This document shows, in pieces, positions 21,536 to 31,691 of a stretch of DNA of 35,018 bases; position 1 is the first letter of the stretch; every line of letters begins with the position of its first letter. Under the pieces are notes generated by a model. The model made no database searches, was not told the DNA's origin, and worked only from the letters and a program-made list of their open reading frames with translations. Both the position numbers and the translations under genes were made by a program. Source of the DNA: Deltaproteobacteria bacterium (lineage in GTDB: Bacteria > Desulfobacterota > Desulfarculia > Adiutricales > Adiutricaceae); contig JAITKT010000182.1 of NCBI GenBank assembly GCA_031278225.1, positions 1 to 35,018 on the forward strand, given 5' to 3'.

Positions 21536-22747
21536 TCAGTTCTTGTCTTCCGCGTCGGCGTCGTTTTCGGGGCAGTCCTCGAGGTCTTGGTCCAGTTCCG
21601 GGCTTTCTTCGGCGTCGAAGATTTCGGCGGGGTCGTCGTTTTTCGGGTCGTCCGCCTTCCCTTCGGCCGCTTTCCCTTCGGCCGCTTTCCGTTCGTTCGC
21701 GGTCTCGGCGCCCAGTTGGGAGGCGGGGGGCGTTTTTTTGGCGGGGAGCCTCGAGTCCGGGATGACGTCCTCGTCGTCTATGAGCCAGGGGTCCCTGAAA
21801 CAGGCGATGTTCCGGCCCATCTGCTTCGCGTCGTAGAGGGCGAGGTCGGCCCTTCTTATGAAGTTCTGGAGGGTTTCCCCGGGGCGGTATATGGTGAAGC
21901 CCACGCTTATGGTGATCCGGAGCTTGTCGGTCCCGAAGTCGTGGGAGGCTATCCTCGAGCGGAGCTTTTCCGCGAGCTTCTGGGACTGCTCGGTGTTGGT
22001 GTCCGGGGCTATGACCGTGAACTCGTCGCCCCCGTAGCGGGCGGGAAAGTCGTTCTTGCGGAGGGAGGCCTTCAGGACCTCGGCCACCTGGATCAGTATG
22101 GAGTCACCCGCGAGGTGGCCCAGGGTGTCGTTCACGTTTTTGAAGTGGTCCACGTCGATGATGAAGAGGGCCATGGTGGGGGAGTAGTTCCTGAACTTCT
22201 CGACCTGCTCTTGGAGTATGTCCATGAAACTGCCCTTGTTGTAGAGCTTGGTCATGGCGTCGAAGAGGGCCTTTTTCTTGAAGGAGTTCAGGGCCGTGGA
22301 GATCTTCCGCCTCTCCATGAGCTCGTGGCGGGCCTTTCTCAAAATGCGGAGACGCTCGGCGTACTCCTCGTGGATGACCTGGATGCTCATGACCTGCTCG
22401 TCCTTGAGCTGCCAGGCCCTGGCTATCAGGGGGATCTCCTCGGAGGAGGAGTGGTCGGTTTCCAGCCAGATCCCGGAGTTGATGCGCTCCCCGGGCTTGG
22501 GGGAACGCTCGAAGAACTCCTCGGCGTCCAGAAGGAAGTATTCGAGCATGAAGGAATGTTCCCAGGGGTTGTCGAGGCGCCCGTCATCCCCGGTGAAGAT
22601 CTTTTTGTAAAAGGACGGGACGAGGCCGCAGAATTCGTAGCTCCTCGGGCCCGTGCGCTTGAGGAGGGCGTATTCCAGGAAATTCAAAAACTCCAGTCCC
22701 AAGGCCCCGTCGAAATCGCTGAGAGCGGGAGGGGTGTTTTCGGTCAC
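21536..22747 (-). CDS. Diguanylate cyclase with a novel N-terminal sensor-like module
   Basis: A 403-aa protein predicted to make c-di-GMP from two GTP. The GGDEF domain spans about 162-317 with an intact active site GGDEF (239-243), metal-binding Asp in IIDVDHFKNVND, and an inhibitory I-site RKND (230-233) exactly five residues upstream, so product feedback is expected. The N-terminal 125 residues (GLVPSFYKKIF, FMLEYFLLDAEEFFE, INSGIWLETD) are a separate domain followed by a short coiled coil; from memory this resembles modules preceding histidine kinases in cyanobacterial clusters with Rab-like GTPases. The tail (340-403) is acidic with AAEGK repeats. There is no membrane segment. The GTG start overlaps the GTPase stop (GTGA); the frame is open further upstream, but there it overlaps the GTPase gene and is not coding. 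Coupled translation suggests a GTPase effector, which is inference. Confidence 0.93.
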   Translation of the reverse strand: MTENTPPALSDFDGALGLEFLNFLEYALLKRTGPRSYEFCGLVPSFYKKIFTGDDGRLDNPWEHSFMLEYFLLDAEEFFERSPKPGERINSGIWLETDHSSSEEIPLIARAWQLKDEQVMSIQVIHEEYAERLRILRKARHELMERRKISTALNSFKKKALFDAMTKLYNKGSFMDILQEQVEKFRNYSPTMALFIIDVDHFKNVNDTLGHLAGDSILIQVAEVLKASLRKNDFPARYGGDEFTVIAPDTNTEQSQKLAEKLRSRIASHDFGTDKLRITISVGFTIYRPGETLQNFIRRADLALYDAKQMGRNIACFRDPWLIDDEDVIPDSRLPAKKTPPASQLGAETANERKAAEGKAAEGKADDPKNDDPAEIFDAEESPELDQDLEDCPENDADAEDKN

Positions 22748-23256
22748 GTTTTCTCCAACATGTCCAAGGTGAGGTCCCGAAAGGTTTGTTCCACGTTCAG
22801 ACCCGTCTTGGCGCTTGTTTTGACGATCTTGATTCCCTTGGATTCCAGGGAACTCAGAACCTTGTCCGACACTTCCCACTCGGGTTCGAGGTCGCACTTG
22901 TTTATCAAAAAATAGCCCGGCACCCCCCGGTCCAGGATCTTCAGGGCCTCGTTCCGGAGCTTCAGGGCCACGGACAGGGTCTCCCCCCTGGTGCCGTCCA
23001 CGACGAAGAGGAGGCCGTGGGCGCCCCTCAGGTAAGAGAGATTCACGGTCGAGTAATTGTCCTGGCCCTCCATGTCCCACAGGACCAGGGACACGCCTCC
23101 CTCTTCCTCCCGGTCCTCCCTTATGACCTTCTTGGAGATTTTGACTCCCACGGTGGAGAGGTAGTTGTCGGAAAAAATGGAGTTGACGAACTGCCTCACC
23201 AATGCCGTTTTGCCCACGCAGAAGGCCCCCAGCATGCATATCTTTTTGTTAATCAT
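22744..23256 (-). CDS. Ras/Rab-like small GTPase
   Basis: A 170-aa single-domain GTPase with every G motif of eukaryotic-like small GTPases: P-loop GAFCVGKT (10-17), switch I Thr35 in YLSTVGV, switch II WDMEGQ with Asp61, Gly64 and the catalytic Gln65, NKCD (119-122) for guanine recognition, and SAK (148-150). There is no C-terminal prenylation motif and no membrane segment, so localisation must come from partners. Prokaryotic members (the MglA/Rup groups) control polarity or unknown processes, usually with a roadblock-fold partner. Here the roadblock-like domain is in the upstream OmpA protein and a diguanylate cyclase is translationally coupled downstream. The ribosome site GGAGGA is rather far (about 14 bases) from the ATG. 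The intact Gln means intrinsic hydrolysis is possible. Confidence 0.95.
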   Translation of the reverse strand: MINKKICMLGAFCVGKTALVRQFVNSIFSDNYLSTVGVKISKKVIREDREEEGGVSLVLWDMEGQDNYSTVNLSYLRGAHGLLFVVDGTRGETLSVALKLRNEALKILDRGVPGYFLINKCDLEPEWEVSDKVLSSLESKGIKIVKTSAKTGLNVEQTFRDLTLDMLEKT

Positions 23257-23591
23257 CGTAGGTGTTCGCGTCCTCCGCGCGACAAAGCCGGTTTTCGGGC
23301 CCCCGGCCTCCCGATCGGGGCGTTCCGGGGAGGGCCGTCGCGGCCGTGACGCGCCCGCGTTCGGGTTTTTGGCCGATTGTCCGGTTTTTCCCTCCCCCTT
23401 CGCGCGCGAAGCGGCGAATCCGGAAAAGGCGAAAAATCAGAAAAAAAGTATAAAACACTGACCGGCTTTTGAAAAGCCCCCCGAACGGGGCCCGCGGGGC
23501 CGGGCGCGTGAAGACGCGGGGGACCGCCCGCCTCCCGGGGGTCTTTCCCCGGCCGGGGCATGAAAAGGCGCGGCCGTCCGGGCCCGTTTCC
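23257..23591. other. Intergenic region with an internal promoter
   Basis: These 335 bases separate the OmpA-roadblock gene from the GTPase gene. They contain a promoter candidate and palindrome (23447-23478) and otherwise only GC-rich sequence without a gene. Confidence 0.55.
23447..23478 (-). promoter_or_regulatory. Internal promoter and palindrome upstream of the GTPase gene
   Basis: TTTTCA (23475-23470), 17 bases, then TATACT (23452-23447) on the minus strand. The -35 box lies inside a palindrome, GGCTTTT-G-AAAAGCC (23464-23478). The GTPase-cyclase pair could thus be transcribed apart from the OmpA gene, with a start near 23440. The palindrome could also act as a weak stem after the OmpA gene. 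Confidence 0.45.
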
Positions 23592-26500
23592 CTACTCCGG
23601 CGGCCCGGGGATTTCCCCGGTGGACGCGTCCCCCACGTCGAGGCCCAGGATCTTCGCCGCGTTGGCCCCGGCGCCCTCCACGAAGACGCGCAGTTCTATC
23701 CTGCGGCTGTCGAGGTCCTCCACGGGCTTGTCCGCCCCGGGGTCGTTTTTGGAAAACTCCGAGCCCATGGCGAAGTTGCGGATGGTCATGTAGGAGCCCC
23801 GGGCGTAGAGAAGGGCCGCCACGGTCTTGGTTCTTTCGAGGGAGAGCTCGTAGTTGCGCATGGGTTGGCCCGTGGCGTCCGTGTGCCCGTAGATGGCGAG
23901 GGAGATCGTGACCTGCAGGCGCGGGGCCAGGTCCTCGAGTTCCTTCAATTTGTCCATGGCCTCGGCGAGTTTCCCCGCGTCCTCCGGGATGGGTTCGGCT
24001 TTCCCCAAGGGGAAGCGTATGTTGGCGTCGTTAATCTCCCGGACGAGGGCGATCATCTTCGCGATGTCCTCGTTGTGGACCCCCGAGGTGTCCACGGACT
24101 TCACCCCCGCGACGGAGGTCGATTTGTTCAGGGTCGAGACGAGCCAGCCCAAGGGCGCGTCGCCTTTCAAGGAAATGACCCCTGTCGCGTCGTCGAAAAC
24201 GACTTCCATGGTCCCGGGGGGAGCGAGGATGTTCGCGATCCTTTGGCGCACCAAGGGGCCGTCCATGGACACGAAGGGTTTGACCACGAGCCGGAAGGCG
24301 CTTTCGCGGACGTCGCCCGCTTCCGTGAGCACCGCCGCGGGGTCCTCGGCCAGCTCGTCCTTGAGGCAGACCACCTCGTAAAGACCGTCGCCGATTTCGG
24401 TGACCCTCCCCACGGCCAGTCCCGGCCTGTCGTTCAAGCGCTCTATGGCCGCGTTCACCTTTTTTTCGAAGGAGGCCCTGGCCCTCGTTCGAAAATCCGC
24501 TCTTTCCTCGGCCCTTCTCTCCTCGACCGCCCCGTTTTCCGCGATAAGTTTGTCGTCGTAAATTTTAAGACCCAAAAGGGCCAAAAGAATCAAAACGATT
24601 GTCGCGGGGATCATCCTCACGAGGAAGGGAAGTTTCCGGGGCTTTTCCTCGTACTGGGCCACCAGGAAGGGCTGGAAGAAGGCCCTGTTCTTTTTGAAGG
24701 GGGCGGGGTCCCCGGAGAAATTGTCGAGGTCGTCCGCGGAGTTCACCACCATGAGCTCCAGGGCGTCCTGGAGGTCCTGCTTCAGGGAGGCCGGGGGATT
24801 TCCCCTGACCACGCAGGCCATGAAGACCTTTTCCGTTCTCTGGAGGAAGATGGTCCTCTCCCCGAACCTCAGATTGTCCAGATGCTCGTTTTTGCCCACC
24901 GAGAAGCTGTCCCTTATGAAGTCCCGGATGGCGGTGAACATCGCCGCGACGAGTTCGGCGTCCCTGCTTTCGCCCCCCTCGTAGACGAGGTGGTCGAGGA
25001 TGAGACCCGACTCGGCGTGGATGAGGTAAATTTCCTCCACGTGATAGAGAAGCGTGTGGAGAAGGACTATCTCGCTGAAGGGCTTGTGCACCCTCCAGGC
25101 CTCGAGCCTCCACTTCGCGCCCTTCAGGGAAAAGCTCGTCTCCAGCATGCTGTTGAAAGATTGGAGCATGCTGGTGAAGGTGTCGGAGATGGACCTTCTT
25201 ATCGCGGGACCTATGACCGGGAAGATCTGGTTCGCGAGGGTCTCGGGGTTTCTCCTGACCGAGGAACTGAAGATCTTTTCCACGGTCGGGGCCAGGACCG
25301 TGTTGAGTTTGTCGTCCTTGCGGCTCCTCACGAGGAGGGCCTCGGTTATGACGCCCGCGATCCTCTGGGCCAGGGCCTGGGGGTCGTCGATGATGTCGGT
25401 GAGCCTGTCGAGCTGTTTCAGCTCCCTTTCGAAGAAGAGACTCCGGAGCTTTCCCATTTCGCTGGAGGGGTCGGGTCGGGGAGGCAGAAGGTCGGCGTCG
25501 GTTTCTTCCGAGCCGCCTTCGGCGCCGCGGTCAATGGCTCCTCCGTCGGTCCCCGCGAAGGTTTCGTCGACCGTTCCCGCGAAGATTTCGTCGCCGGTTC
25601 CTTCCGGGGAAGCCCCGTCCCCGAACGCGCGTTCCGGCGCCTTGTCCGCGGAAAGGTACGCGAAACCGGTTCCGAAGCCCTCGCCGAAGCCCGCGTCGAA
25701 AGCCGCTCCGAAGCCCGCGGCGGGGGTTTCCGGGGAGGTTCGGGTTTTCGGCGTTTCTTCCGGGTCGTCCGCGAGTTCGAAGTCTTCCCCGAGGTCCTCG
25801 GAACTTAAGCTTATCGCCTCGTGACGTTCGGGGTCGTCGCTTTTCCGGGGCGGTTTATCCGCCGCGTCCCCCGGATCCGCGCTCTCCGAAAAAGCGACCG
25901 GGGTTTCGTCGTCGGAAGGCGATTCGTCGTCGGGCGGGGCGAGGTCGTCGAAGGCGTGGTCGAAAACCACCGCGTCGTCCAAGGGAATCGCGGGGTCCTC
26001 CCCGCGGGCGTCCGCCGTTTTCCCGGGGGCCGTTTCGGGCGTTTCGGGGGCCCGCGGGACGCGTTTGTCCGAGACCGCGAGTTCCGCCAGTTCCGGAAAG
26101 AAGGAATCCAGCTCCGAGAGGAAGCTCTCCTCGAAGTTTTTCTTGGCGGTTTCCCTCGCGTTCGCGGTTTCTCCCGCGTCGGACGCGCCTTTTTCCCCCG
26201 GGTTCATTCCCGGGTCGATTCCCGGGTCGATTTCCGTGTCGTTCGCGTTTCGGGGAGACGCGCCCGAATCCGGGGCGGTCGAAATCGGGTCGGAAATCGG
26301 GCCGGAATCGGGGCTCGAATCCGGGTCGGTTTTGGGAAAATTCGCGAAAGGGGCGTCGTCGGGGGTGTCTTCGGGAGTGTGGTCGGGAGTGTCGTCCGGA
26401 GTGTTTTCGGGAGTGTGGTCGGGAGTGTCGTCGGTGGTCGCGCGGGAGTCGGAAAGGTCATCGGGGAAGAGGGAAGGGAAGACGGAGGGGTCGTCCGAAG

Positions 26501-26615
26501 GGCCCGGGGCGGGGACGTTCCCGCCCGGGTCCCCGCCGGGGGCGGGGTTCGGGGGAGGTCCCTGCTCGGAACCCCCGATTTTTTTCTTTTTGGAAAAAAA
26601 TGAGAATAAACCCAT
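23592..26615 (-). CDS. Trans-envelope protein: roadblock-like cytoplasmic domain, one membrane span, OmpA domain
   Basis: A 1007-aa protein of clear layout. Residues 1-380 are a long acidic, low-complexity region with tandem tetrapeptides TP(D/E)x (64-87) and DPG repeats. Residues about 390-645 form a conserved helical and alpha/beta part; 512-625 (LLHTLLYHVEEIYLIHAESGLIL onward) looks like a roadblock/LC7 fold, the fold of MglB-type GTPase regulators. One membrane span lies at 664-684. The periplasmic part (about 700-1000) has two BON-like stretches and an OmpA C-terminal domain (865-980, with YGHTDATGQ and SRRIEL) that in this family binds peptidoglycan. It thus links the cell wall to the cytoplasm. 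The small GTPase follows downstream, so I infer that the roadblock part contacts it. The ATG has GAGGA 11 bases upstream. I recall a similar architecture beside Rab-like GTPases in cyanobacteria; its function is not established. Confidence 0.88.
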   Translation of the reverse strand: MGLFSFFSKKKKIGGSEQGPPPNPAPGGDPGGNVPAPGPSDDPSVFPSLFPDDLSDSRATTDDTPDHTPENTPDDTPDHTPEDTPDDAPFANFPKTDPDSSPDSGPISDPISTAPDSGASPRNANDTEIDPGIDPGMNPGEKGASDAGETANARETAKKNFEESFLSELDSFFPELAELAVSDKRVPRAPETPETAPGKTADARGEDPAIPLDDAVVFDHAFDDLAPPDDESPSDDETPVAFSESADPGDAADKPPRKSDDPERHEAISLSSEDLGEDFELADDPEETPKTRTSPETPAAGFGAAFDAGFGEGFGTGFAYLSADKAPERAFGDGASPEGTGDEIFAGTVDETFAGTDGGAIDRGAEGGSEETDADLLPPRPDPSSEMGKLRSLFFERELKQLDRLTDIIDDPQALAQRIAGVITEALLVRSRKDDKLNTVLAPTVEKIFSSSVRRNPETLANQIFPVIGPAIRRSISDTFTSMLQSFNSMLETSFSLKGAKWRLEAWRVHKPFSEIVLLHTLLYHVEEIYLIHAESGLILDHLVYEGGESRDAELVAAMFTAIRDFIRDSFSVGKNEHLDNLRFGERTIFLQRTEKVFMACVVRGNPPASLKQDLQDALELMVVNSADDLDNFSGDPAPFKKNRAFFQPFLVAQYEEKPRKLPFLVRMIPATIVLILLALLGLKIYDDKLIAENGAVEERRAEERADFRTRARASFEKKVNAAIERLNDRPGLAVGRVTEIGDGLYEVVCLKDELAEDPAAVLTEAGDVRESAFRLVVKPFVSMDGPLVRQRIANILAPPGTMEVVFDDATGVISLKGDAPLGWLVSTLNKSTSVAGVKSVDTSGVHNEDIAKMIALVREINDANIRFPLGKAEPIPEDAGKLAEAMDKLKELEDLAPRLQVTISLAIYGHTDATGQPMRNYELSLERTKTVAALLYARGSYMTIRNFAMGSEFSKNDPGADKPVEDLDSRRIELRVFVEGAGANAAKILGLDVGDASTGEIPGPPE
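26355..26432. repeat. 12-bp coding tandem repeat in the OmpA-protein gene
   Basis: About six degenerate 12-bp units encode successive TP(D/E)x tetrapeptides in the acidic region. A second patch near 26206-26235 repeats a 12-bp DPG-coding unit three times. Being in frame (12 = 4 codons), changes in copy number would alter length without a frameshift. Confidence 0.7.
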
Positions 26616-26763
26616 GTCCGTTCGTGTTCCTCAGCGCGCGACGGTCCCGTCCCCCGGGGCGCCCGCGGCGGGTTTCCGGGACCGGGAGTCCCGGGGGACG
26701 GGGGGAAAGGGTCCCGAAAGGGTCCGGATTCCCCGGCCGGCCTTTCGGGCCGCGGCCGTTTTT

Positions 26764-27618
26764 TCAGTATCCGCCCTGGCCGTCGTTTCCGCGGTTTTGG
26801 TCGTCGTAACCCCGGTTTTGGTCTTCGGGGTTTTGGTCTTCGGGGTTTTGGTTTTCCCCTTCCGGGGCGTTTTCGCCTTCCCGGTTTTCGTTTTCGCCGG
26901 AATCGCTCTCGTAAACGTCCTTGGCCTCTTCCTCGACGTCGTCCATGTCGAGGTTCCAGGGTTTGGAGAGGTTGGCCACGGTGTCGGTGAACATGGTGGA
27001 AAGGGCGGTGCGGTATACCATGTCGGAGCGGATCTGGGAGGAGGTCTTTCCGATGATGGCCACGAGCTCGGCGTATTTCTCGTCAATCTTGTCCGAGAGG
27101 CTCGTCGTTTCCCGCATGAGGAGATCCCTTATCGCCCTTTCGGTCTGGTCGAGGTTCCGGGAGATGATGCCCGCCTTTCTCTCGAAGTTTTCGTTGGCGT
27201 TCCGGAGCTCGGTCGAGAGGCGGGAGTCGGATTCCTGGCGTTCCCGGTTCTCGCGGGCGATGCCGTCCCGGAACTCGTTTTTGAGGTTTTCCCCCTGGTT
27301 CTCCCTTTCCCTCGCCTCCGCCCCGAGAGCTTCCTGGCGGTCCTTTTCCTCGTTTTTGAGGGAGTTTTCCCGCTCTTCCTTCTCCTCGGCGAGCTTGTTG
27401 AACATGGCCCCGATTTCGCTTTTCATGTGGTTTTCGAGGGAGTCCAGGCGGCTTCTCAAGGATTCCCTGACTTCGTTGATTTCCCTCAGGAAGCGCTCTT
27501 CCTGTCTCCGGAAGCGGGTTTCCATGTCTTTCAACTGAGCCCCGAAAAGGATTTCCCTCACCTGGGCCATGGGGGCGTCGGACTTGTCTAGACCCCCGCG
27601 GGGTAAATTTTTTGTCAT
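26764..27618 (-). CDS. Coiled-coil protein with acidic Asn/Gln/Asp-rich tail
   Basis: A 284-aa protein, first gene of the GTPase cluster. Residues about 17-60 (REILFGAQLKDMETRF onward) begin a long heptad-type coiled coil running to about 190, with many Arg, Glu and Lys. A short hydrophobic-helical stretch follows (YRTALSTMFTDTVANLSKP), then an acidic disordered tail with NPEDQ and NRG repeats (a 15-bp DNA repeat near 26814-26853). There is no signal peptide or membrane segment. The start is secured by GGAGGT nine bases before the ATG. A start at Met17 is possible but less well supported. The start 'MAQVREILFG' and the overall pattern resemble coiled-coil proteins I remember beside OmpA-GTPase pairs in other bacteria, which suggests a scaffold role. 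This is inference. Confidence 0.85.
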   Translation of the reverse strand: MTKNLPRGGLDKSDAPMAQVREILFGAQLKDMETRFRRQEERFLREINEVRESLRSRLDSLENHMKSEIGAMFNKLAEEKEERENSLKNEEKDRQEALGAEARERENQGENLKNEFRDGIARENRERQESDSRLSTELRNANENFERKAGIISRNLDQTERAIRDLLMRETTSLSDKIDEKYAELVAIIGKTSSQIRSDMVYRTALSTMFTDTVANLSKPWNLDMDDVEEEAKDVYESDSGENENREGENAPEGENQNPEDQNPEDQNRGYDDQNRGNDGQGGY

Positions 27619-27920
27619 CGTGAAAAGACCTCCGAAAGGGACCGGGGAGCATTCCGGCCAAAGAAAACTTTATGTCTTCGAAACAAAGAACGGGCGTGAA
27701 TTCGGGTGGCGCGGCCCCCGTCGCGGCGGCGCGGGTTTTCGGGGGAACGCGCGCGGGAAGTGGGGATTCGGGGCGGGCGGCGCCAATCGAAGCCTTCCCC
27801 GGGGAAACCCGGGTGGAATCCGGACCCGTTTTTCGGCCAACGCCCGCCGAGTCCGTTTCGTTTGACGCCTTTCAAGGAATGTTCGGGGGATATCGGGGCA
27901 AAAACGATCGGACGGAGCGC

Positions 27921-27957
27921 ATGTGTGTAATATACACCATAAACGCTCGGGAATAAA
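27921..27957 (-). promoter_or_regulatory. Promoter of the GTPase cluster
   Basis: TTTATT (27957-27952), a 17-base spacer, then TATATT (27934-27929; five of six to consensus) on the minus strand. The palindrome GTGTA-ATA-TACAC covers the -10 box. The predicted start, near 27922, leaves a leader of about 300 bases. Confidence 0.5.
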
Positions 27958-27964
27958 TTAAACG

Positions 27965-28027
27965 AGAAAGAAAAACAAATATTTTTCACAAAATGTTTGT
28001 TTAAACAATATTTGAGATTTTCTTTCT
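27965..28027. repeat. AT-rich inverted repeat upstream of the GTPase-cluster promoter
   Basis: Left arm AGAAAGAAAAACAAATATT (27965-27983) is the reverse complement of the right arm at 28007-28027 apart from a 2-base insertion. The 23-base centre contains ACAAA-ATG-TTTGT and the 8-bp palindrome GTTTAAAC. It stands out by being almost free of G and C in a GC-rich region. Confidence 0.75.
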
Positions 28028-28738
28028 TTATTCGGGCCCGACACTTCATTTTCCAAAAAGACGAGACCAAAAACCCGCGCGAAACTTGACGTTTCGAGAG
28101 AACGGCGAATTTTTATGACCTGAAAATCGGGAAGTGCCCGCGAGTCCCGTCTTTTGACCGGATCCGCCCGTCGCGGGACAAAGCTTCGGGAAACCCCGCG
28201 TGAAGCGGCGCGGTCCCCAAAACTTTCAGGTATCTTAATCCAAACCGCGTCGCATTTCCATAAAAAAACAAGGGGCGGGGGTTCGGGGGCCCGGGGAGCG
28301 CGCGAGAGATGTCGCGGTCAAAACGCCCGGGCCGCGAGATGAAGTGGTGGCTTCGGGGGAGAGCGAGTCCGTCCGCGATTCGGTTTTGACGCGCCCGCGC
28401 CCGCGCCACCCCGGGGATTTCGAAATCGACGCCGCTCGCCCGTCGACGGGCGTCGAAACCGGTCCCGGCCTCCCGCTCCCCCTTTCCCCGGGGAACCGGG
28501 CTTCCGGGAACGGACCTCCGGAGAGCGCGGTCGCGGGCTTTCGGGAGACCCGCCGGGGGGAACGGAAACCCCTTCGGGTTTCGGGGCGGGGTTTTGGGGG
28601 CGAAGATCCCCCGGATTCTCGCGTTTCGCGGCTTTGGCGGGGTTTTCGCGAGAAATCGCGCCGTTATCCGGAAACTTTCCGGGCGGGGCGGCGGGCGGGC
28701 AAGGGAAGGTCGGGCGGCGCGCCGCGACGGGGGGGGCG

Positions 28739-28798
28739 AAACGACGTCAAACGGCGCCAAACGGAGTTAAACCGTACGAAACGTGGCGAAACGGTTTG
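28739..28798. repeat. Phased 10-bp array, six AAAC units
   Basis: AAAC recurs at 28739, 28749, 28759, 28769, 28779 and 28789; most units begin AAACG and the other six bases vary. The last units also form a 7-bp inverted repeat (AAACCGT with ACGGTTT). Confidence 0.75.
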
Positions 28799-29417
28799 AT
28801 TCGAGGGGAAAGACCCGGAAGGCGGGGAGGGGAAGCTTGAGGCAAGGGGGCGAAGCCGGGTCCGGGGAAGGGGAGGGAAGACGAAGGGGGTGCTTCCCGC
28901 GGCGAAACGGGCCGCCGGGGCCTAGAAAAGCCGGGGGAAACCCGAAAATGGCGCGGAAGAAACGGAAAAGCCGAAGAACGGACCGGGCGGAGCGCGTCGC
29001 TGGGGGCGTTTCGGAGAGGCCCGCGAGGGACGCGGGGAAAAAAGGAGGTGACCGGAAAACGTTCCGAACGGTTTTTGACCTCCGGGAAAACCCGAATTCA
29101 CAATCCGGAAGGGACGCGCGCGGCCGGGCCGACGTCCCTTCGGGTTGTCCCCCGAATGCCCCGGGGATTCGCGAAATACCCGAAAGGAAGTTCGATTCCG
29201 GCCGGGCGGCGGTTTTTCCCGTGAATTTTATTCGTTCGTTTCCGGAAGCGAATCCTTCGCGGGTCGGTTTCGCGTCTCCGTTTTTCTTTGTTTTCCCTTG
29301 GTTTCCGGGGGCGGTCGCCGAAGCGGCCATCCCCGGGGAAAAATTTTTCGCGAGCGTTCGGTTTTTTCGGAAAAGACGGGGCCCGCGGGGGAATCGATTC
29401 GCGGGACGGGGAGTCGC

Positions 29418-31691
29418 TCAAACCCCCAGCACCTCCTCGGAGAGGTCTTTTTCCATCTTCGCGAGACCCTCTTCCAGGTCCGGGCCGTACTCGTCGCTCA
29501 TGCCAAAAAGTTTTTCCGCCATGGCCTGGGCCTTGGCCACGCGGACGAGGTCCCCGGGGAGTTTCACGAAATCGAACTTGGGCCAGCCGGACTGTTTGAG
29601 GCCCAGGTCTTCCCCGGGTCCCCTGAGCTTAAGGTCCAGCTCCGCGAGTTCGTAGCCGTTTTTTCCGCTCTTGAGGGCGTCGAAGCGGGCCCTGGCGTTG
29701 TCGGAGGGTTCCTCCGAGTGGGCCAAAAGAATCAGGGTGGCTTTTCCCCCGCCCCTCCCGACCCTGCCCCTCAGCTGGTGCAGCTGGGCGAGCCCCATGT
29801 TTTCGGCGCCTTCTATCAGCATGACGTTCGCCCCGGGTACGTCCACCCCGACCTCCACCATGGTCGTGGACAAGAGGACGCGGAGGGAGCGGTTCCTGAA
29901 GTTTTCCATGACGGCCGCGCGGTCTTTTTTGTTTTGTTTTCCGTGGATGATCCCGTACGCGACGCCCGGGGCCGCGGCGAGGAGTTTCTTCTCCATCTCG
30001 GCGATGGAGGGCCCTTTCCCCGAGGGGGCTAGTCCCCGCTCCGCGAAGGGGAGGGAAAGGTCGTGCTCCCCGGAGGCGCCGGGGGCGGCCTCCCGCGACT
30101 TGTTCTTTTCTTCCCTTTCCCTTTCTTTTTCCTTGTCTTCCTCGTCGTAGGCGGGAGGGGATTCCTCCTCGCCTTTCCCGATGCGGGGACTCACGAGGAA
30201 GCCTTGTTCCCCCGAACTCACGAGCTTCGCGAAGAGCCCGTAGGCTTCGGCGGCCTCCCCGGAGTCGAAGACCCTGGTGTCCGGGACCGTCCTTCCCGGA
30301 AGGGTTCCCATGATGGAGACCACGTCCATGTCTCCGTACAGGACCGAGGCGAGGGACCTGGGAATGGGGGTGGCGGACATGCTCACGAGGTCCAGTTTGG
30401 GGTTCCGCTCCCTCAAACAAAGTCTCTGCTTCACCCCGAAGCGGTGCTGTTCGTCCAGGACGGCCAGGGCGAGGTCCCCGAAAACGACCTTTTGGGAGAA
30501 GGCCGCCTGGGTGCTCACGAGGAGCGGGAGGGTTCCGTTTTCGAGCCCTTCCAAAATCTTCTTTTTTTCCGCGGCCGGCGTGGAGCCGGTCAGAAGCGCC
30601 ATGTCGATCCCCAAACTTTTCGCGCGGGGGGCGAGAAAGTCCGCGTGCTGTTTCGCCAGAAGTTCCGTGGGAGCGACGATGGCCCCCTGTCTTCCGGTCC
30701 CCGCCGCGCGGAACAAAAGGGTCGCGACCACGGCCGTCTTCCCGCAGCCGACTTCCCCCTGCAGGAGAATGTTCGCGGGGTGAGGTTCGGAAAAGGCCTT
30801 TTTCAATTCCCCCGTTACCCTTTTCTGCTCGTCTGTGAGTTCAAAGGGAAGGGCCTTGACGAAGGCGTTTCCGAGGTCGGATTCGGGGGGGATCGGCTTC
30901 CTTTCGACCTCGATCTTAAGCGTTTTGGCCCTGACCCTCATGTTGAGGAGTCTCCAGAACATGAGCTCGTGGAGTCCCAGGGTCCTGAAGGCGTGGGTCT
31001 GTCTGGGGTGGGGTATGACCCCCCCGGGGACCGCGGGGGGCTCGTGAATCGTCCTCAAAAAATCCGAGGGGTCCCTTATCTTTTCCGAGCGCAGGAAGGC
31101 GTCGGGAAGGACGCGGGGGAGCTTTCCGGGGCAAGAGCGCAGGAGTTTTTCGATGAGGGTTTTTCTTTGGGCTGGGGAGAGTGTCCTTATGGTCCCGTAC
31201 ACGGGAAAGACCCCCAAAACGGATTCGGGGTCCGCGCGGGTGATGTCCCAGAACTCCGGATGGAAGATGTTGGGCTCGAAGTTCCCGTCCCGGGTCTCCT
31301 TGAAAGAGGAGACGAGGCCGTGGACGGCGTATTTCCCCCATGCCCGGATGAGTCTCGCGATGTGGTTGATGCCGTGGAAGAACCACAGACGGCCTGTGGC
31401 CCCCCTCCCGGAGGTGTCCTCAATCCTTGCGATGAGGCAGTCTCTCCCCGATTGGGTCACCGTTGTCCTTATTTCGGTCACCACCCCCTTGAAGAATATG
31501 ATTTCCCCCTCCGCGGCGGAGGAGAGGGGTTTGTATTCCCTTCTGTCCTGATACCGCAGCGGGGGAATGCGGAGGAGATCCCCCGAAAGACAAAGACCCC
31601 TCTTCCCGAAGGCGGCGATTTGCGCCGGAGTCAAACGGGTGAGCCGGTTTAAGGGCGTCGTGAAGAAAGGATGTCGCGGCCAGGGGATCAT
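29418..31691 (-). CDS. recG: ATP-dependent DNA helicase RecG
   Basis: Remodels stalled forks, branched DNA and R-loops, driving fork regression in recombination and repair. The 757-aa protein has an N-terminal wedge/OB region (RIEDTSGRGATGRLWFF, SSFKETRDGNFEPNIFHPEFW), Walker A GEVGCGKT, helicase motif II DEQH (RecG hallmark), SATPIPRSLA, and the C-terminal block VEVGVDVPGAN, QLHQLRGRVGRG. It is longer than typical RecG because of a charged Glu/Lys-rich, low-complexity insert of about 55 residues between helicase lobe motifs (around EEDKEKEREREEKNK). The ATG at 31691 is chosen because the promoter TATAAT lies at 31779-31784; the frame is open to 32102, but that part is Phe/Arg-rich and begins upstream of the promoter. 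Monocistronic by appearance. Confidence 0.96.
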   Translation of the reverse strand: MIPWPRHPFFTTPLNRLTRLTPAQIAAFGKRGLCLSGDLLRIPPLRYQDRREYKPLSSAAEGEIIFFKGVVTEIRTTVTQSGRDCLIARIEDTSGRGATGRLWFFHGINHIARLIRAWGKYAVHGLVSSFKETRDGNFEPNIFHPEFWDITRADPESVLGVFPVYGTIRTLSPAQRKTLIEKLLRSCPGKLPRVLPDAFLRSEKIRDPSDFLRTIHEPPAVPGGVIPHPRQTHAFRTLGLHELMFWRLLNMRVRAKTLKIEVERKPIPPESDLGNAFVKALPFELTDEQKRVTGELKKAFSEPHPANILLQGEVGCGKTAVVATLLFRAAGTGRQGAIVAPTELLAKQHADFLAPRAKSLGIDMALLTGSTPAAEKKKILEGLENGTLPLLVSTQAAFSQKVVFGDLALAVLDEQHRFGVKQRLCLRERNPKLDLVSMSATPIPRSLASVLYGDMDVVSIMGTLPGRTVPDTRVFDSGEAAEAYGLFAKLVSSGEQGFLVSPRIGKGEEESPPAYDEEDKEKEREREEKNKSREAAPGASGEHDLSLPFAERGLAPSGKGPSIAEMEKKLLAAAPGVAYGIIHGKQNKKDRAAVMENFRNRSLRVLLSTTMVEVGVDVPGANVMLIEGAENMGLAQLHQLRGRVGRGGGKATLILLAHSEEPSDNARARFDALKSGKNGYELAELDLKLRGPGEDLGLKQSGWPKFDFVKLPGDLVRVAKAQAMAEKLFGMSDEYGPDLEEGLAKMEKDLSEEVLGV

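Follow-up and report, generated by a model that had tools for sequence, protein, structure and literature searches.

A single-copy AT-rich inverted repeat beside a candidate promoter of a small-GTPase gene cluster

The described systems closest to an AT-rich inverted repeat beside a promoter are UP elements, HU/IHF-type sites and dyad operators of dimeric repressors. UP elements are not known to be inverted repeats; the core consensus for IHF is WATCAANNNNTTR. A literature search with the terms combined found no paper. The repeat analyzed here lies in a 35,018-nt stretch of DNA (the window; contig JAITKT010000182.1) from a deltaproteobacterium of the family Adiutricaceae. Because neither another copy nor a conserved counterpart was found, it is most probably a local promoter feature of an ordinary kind.

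A previous reading of the letters alone (the sequence-only reading) had described a 63-bp inverted repeat with 19/21-base arms and almost no G or C, its centre containing two nested palindromes. An AT-rich, imperfect inverted repeat is indeed present at 27965-28027, its composition contrasting with that of the surrounding DNA (19% G+C vs 61% in the sampled genome). The description of its base content was overstated, however, since 12 of the 63 bases are G or C. In an ungapped alignment, 16 of the 21 positions of the 21-nt arms are complementary (76%), short of the proposed figure, which is approached once gaps are allowed: as read from the alignment, the 19-nt left arm then faces the 21-nt right arm through 18 pairs, with one mismatch and a 2-nt bulge. 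Both nested palindromes are real, the inner one (27973-28002) matching at 12 of 13 arm positions and the other, TTGTTTAAACAA, being perfect. A weaker outer extension of the dyad closes the stem across an 8-nt one-sided bulge. The view that the repeat is not a terminator was upheld: an intrinsic terminator, with its GC-rich stem and trailing T run, is excluded by the anatomy, and the three terminator-like sites detected all lie outside the repeat. An Rfam search of 27000-29800 returned no match up to E=1. Elsewhere in the same genome, a GC-rich contig carries a T run of about 40 bases (L047, 296-381).

Table 1. Coordinates of the repeat, the candidate promoter and the neighbouring gene cluster in the window.
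Feature	Position	Strand	Remark
GGDEF domain protein, diguanylate cyclase family	21536-22744	-	
Ras-like small GTPase	22744-23256	-	
Protein with OmpA-like C-terminal domain	23592-26615	-	match slightly below Pfam cut-off
First cluster gene, coiled-coil-like protein	26764-27618	-	weak ZapG-like match below Pfam cut-off
13-bp palindrome GTGTA-ATA-TACAC	27925-27937	.	overlaps candidate -10
Sigma70-like pair TTTATT-17-TATATT	27929-27957	-	best on cluster strand; weak
Inverted repeat	27965-28027, arms 27965-27983 and 28007-28027	.	
Outer dyad extension	27951-27957 with 28028-28034, spanning 27951-28034	.	minimum-energy DNA fold
Inner imperfect palindrome	27973-27985/27990-28002	.	13-bp arms 12/13, 4-bp centre
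Perfect 12-bp palindrome	27997-28008	.	

The first gene of the neighbouring cluster, whose product appears in our own reading of its sequence to contain a coiled coil, was present in 34 of the 60 genomes searched, including the genome under study. At 13 loci that we examined, two of which (L023 and L026) share one contig, all 13 had the OmpA-like gene, 10 the GTPase gene and 9 the GGDEF gene, with some of the stretches ending before these genes. In two of the loci, L033 and L034, the sequence continues for more than 1 kb past the OmpA-like match without a GTPase match. The coiled-coil-like, OmpA-like, Ras-like GTPase and GGDEF genes (21536-27618) stay together as a cluster in related genomes. 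In the window, recG lies upstream of them in the same orientation. Among 33 relatives, for each of which up to 1.5 kb was examined, three also carry recG upstream on that strand; its distance from the gene is 459, 442 and 913 bp in these three, compared with about 1.8 kb in the window. This gap between recG and the cluster (27619-29417) is without a Pfam or Rfam match; four of its ORFs, searched for a hidden gene, matched no Pfam family.

We compared the repeat with shuffled sequences and with other AT-rich patches of the same genome. Of 10,000 dinucleotide-preserving shuffles, 25 reached the fold energy of the 63-mer; 26 of 10,000 dinucleotide shuffles reached that of the segment 27950-28040, and 7 of 6,000 shuffles the gapped inverted-repeat score of the repeat. 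Folded as RNA, the segment 27950-28040 gave a z-score of -2.87. The background sample consisted of 55 records including the window (351,836 readable bases, G+C 0.607) and contained 25 AT-rich patches, defined by at most 25% G+C over 60 bp, among which the repeat ranked first on both the fold z-score and the inverted-repeat score. The density of such patches is about 7 per 100 kb, which extrapolates to about 200 over 3.05 Mb. At a probability of 0.001-0.003 for each of these patches, a few tenths of such a dyad per genome are expected by chance, and the significance is therefore moderate: the repeat is more symmetric than chance and notable, yet at genome scale within chance. Its exact symmetry is specific to the lineage and may be partly fortuitous. 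That the whole dyad is a chance symmetry of AT-rich intergenic DNA, with no selected function, we regard as possible, though as the lesser prospect. Such an origin would suit the per-patch shuffle probability, the extrapolated number of patches and the single, unconserved state of the dyad described below; the clear margin by which the repeat tops the 25 sampled patches and the nesting of its palindromes within each other argue against it.

We then considered the DNA between the repeat and the cluster. A sigma70 scan of the 480 bp upstream of the first gene, with weighted hexamers, ranked the pair TTTATT-17-TATATT highest, with the -35 hexamer at 27957-27952 and the -10 hexamer at 27934-27929. 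The repeat begins 8 bp away, and the 60 bp upstream of the candidate -35 are 80% A+T, against 47% across the region. The score of the pair was matched by 56 of 500 shuffles (11%), and the pair was not among the sites listed by a separate promoter consensus scan. The placement of the repeat directly upstream of a -35 box thus holds as a position next to a promoter-like site, but the box itself is a weak candidate.

The candidate -10 is overlapped by a further palindrome of 13 bp (Table 1), which is the single match in this genome to the pattern GTGTAWWWTACAC. Together with the two palindromes nested in the repeat (30 bp, imperfect, and 12 bp, perfect), which adjoin the candidate promoter, it would suit an operator at which a dimeric protein controlling the GTPase cluster occupies one nested palindrome or both and either blocks or assists RNA polymerase. 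We consider such an operator unlikely, as there is no second site in the assembly, the inner palindrome (with up to three mismatches) and GTGTAWWWTACAC occurring once each, and no counterpart of the inner palindrome upstream of the gene in relatives. Moreover, no regulator gene was identified beside the repeat. A more elaborate version, which we would call a long shot, is a lineage-specific composite operator: a dimer would bind the two nested palindromes and GTGTA-ATA-TACAC over the -10, switching the Ras-like GTPase/GGDEF cluster, and the 84-bp dyad might extrude as a cruciform.

A genome-wide search for other copies, a check named beforehand, found the repeat to be single-copy in its assembly (3.05 Mb in 499 contigs, 78% complete). 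DNA queries of 201 and 81 bp returned only the locus itself and 14-base chance matches, and a pattern search allowing up to three mismatches found the inner palindrome once. We searched the same pattern in 40 genomes, including the one under study. Matches with three mismatches were present in 2 of the 39 relatives, once each and both elsewhere than upstream of the gene, while the backward control gave none. One of them (L106) lies in AT-rich sequence of noncoding or decayed appearance and the other (L107) just before what appears by eye to be a tRNA gene; both are taken as chance matches. In viral contigs, the inner palindrome had no exact match.

These searches bear on two earlier proposals for the repeat, a binding site for an AT-specific silencer and the scar of a small mobile element. 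The inverted-repeat form and the contrast in composition with the surroundings would agree with the scar or end of such an element, or with a silencer site, and we nevertheless rate this as the least probable of the readings considered. The scar finds no support, there being no second copy in the assembly, and the sequence around the repeat displays no clear target-site duplication by eye. For the silencer, the usual protein was not found: Histone_HNS (PF00816), the one silencer family searched, had no match in the 78%-complete assembly. The HU/IHF family, on the other hand, is represented by eight matches.

Conservation upstream of orthologous clusters, the test put forward in the sequence-only reading itself, was absent for the dyad, no counterpart being found in 33 related genomes. 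The same-genus relative (G001) has neither a dyad (z +0.91) nor a matching promoter pair upstream of the gene. In the most AT-rich upstream patch, the dyad z-score fell below -3 in a single relative of the 33 (L011, genus g2; z -3.74), where GC-rich inverted arms surround an AT-rich loop, unlike the dyad of the window; this stretch lies about 460-370 bp upstream of the orthologous gene. Values between -2.4 and -2.8 were obtained for L008, L019, L023 and L033. Patches with G+C no higher than 25% occur within 700 bp upstream in 19 of the 33 relatives, many of these regions being less GC-rich overall.

One related genus does have AT-rich DNA directly before a promoter-like site. In all six genomes of genus g7, TTGACA is found 157-209 bp before the orthologous gene (as part of the second-ranked pair in L013), and the 60 bp upstream of it are 68-85% A+T. 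In genera g2, g3, g5, g6 and g8, no AT-rich block lies directly at the best-scoring pair, before which A+T amounts to 12-57%.

We give about even chances to the reading of the repeat as part of a promoter upstream region rich in A+T that resembles an UP element, is bound by a protein of the HU/IHF type or by another dimeric protein, or both. It draws on the proximity of the best pair and the A+T enrichment before it, on the consistent arrangement in genus g7, on the presence of HU/IHF-family genes, and on a dyad that exceeds its shuffles and the 24 other patches. Counted against it are the weakness of the pair, the same-genus relative, the displacement of the UP-like AT tract described below and the five genera without an AT-rich block at their best pair. 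If the putative promoter is real, as we infer, it would transcribe the cluster leftwards, with the AT-rich stretch 27939-28038, to which the repeat belongs, directly upstream of it. Flexible, easily melted DNA at about -40 to -105 may then bind protein and affect expression, helping RNA polymerase either through contacts with its alpha subunit or through bending by an HU/IHF-family protein, and the dyad would offer a symmetric face usable by a dimer. The UP element or operator proposed earlier are both possible forms of such a site. If functional, the repeat would provide a handle on the control of a small-GTPase/OmpA-like/GGDEF cluster whose genes stay together across related genomes. Being of a common kind, found once and unconserved, the symmetry itself has little import beyond this genome.

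Set beside the known systems, the repeat differs from a MITE-like mobile element in being single-copy in its assembly, and from an H-NS silencer site in that the 78%-complete assembly yielded no H-NS-family gene. It shares palindromes beside a promoter-like site with the dyad operators of dimeric repressors, but here no regulon, conservation or neighbouring regulator was identified. Like an UP element, it places A+T-rich sequence right before a -35-like box (80% A+T over 60 bp); here, however, the -35/-10 pair is weak and the AT tract is offset, lying by our own count about 7 bp from its usual place in the consensus. As for HU/IHF-type sites, no WATCAANNNNTTR core was seen by eye in the repeat; the likeness consists in upstream sequence rich in A+T, in a genome that carries HU/IHF-family genes.
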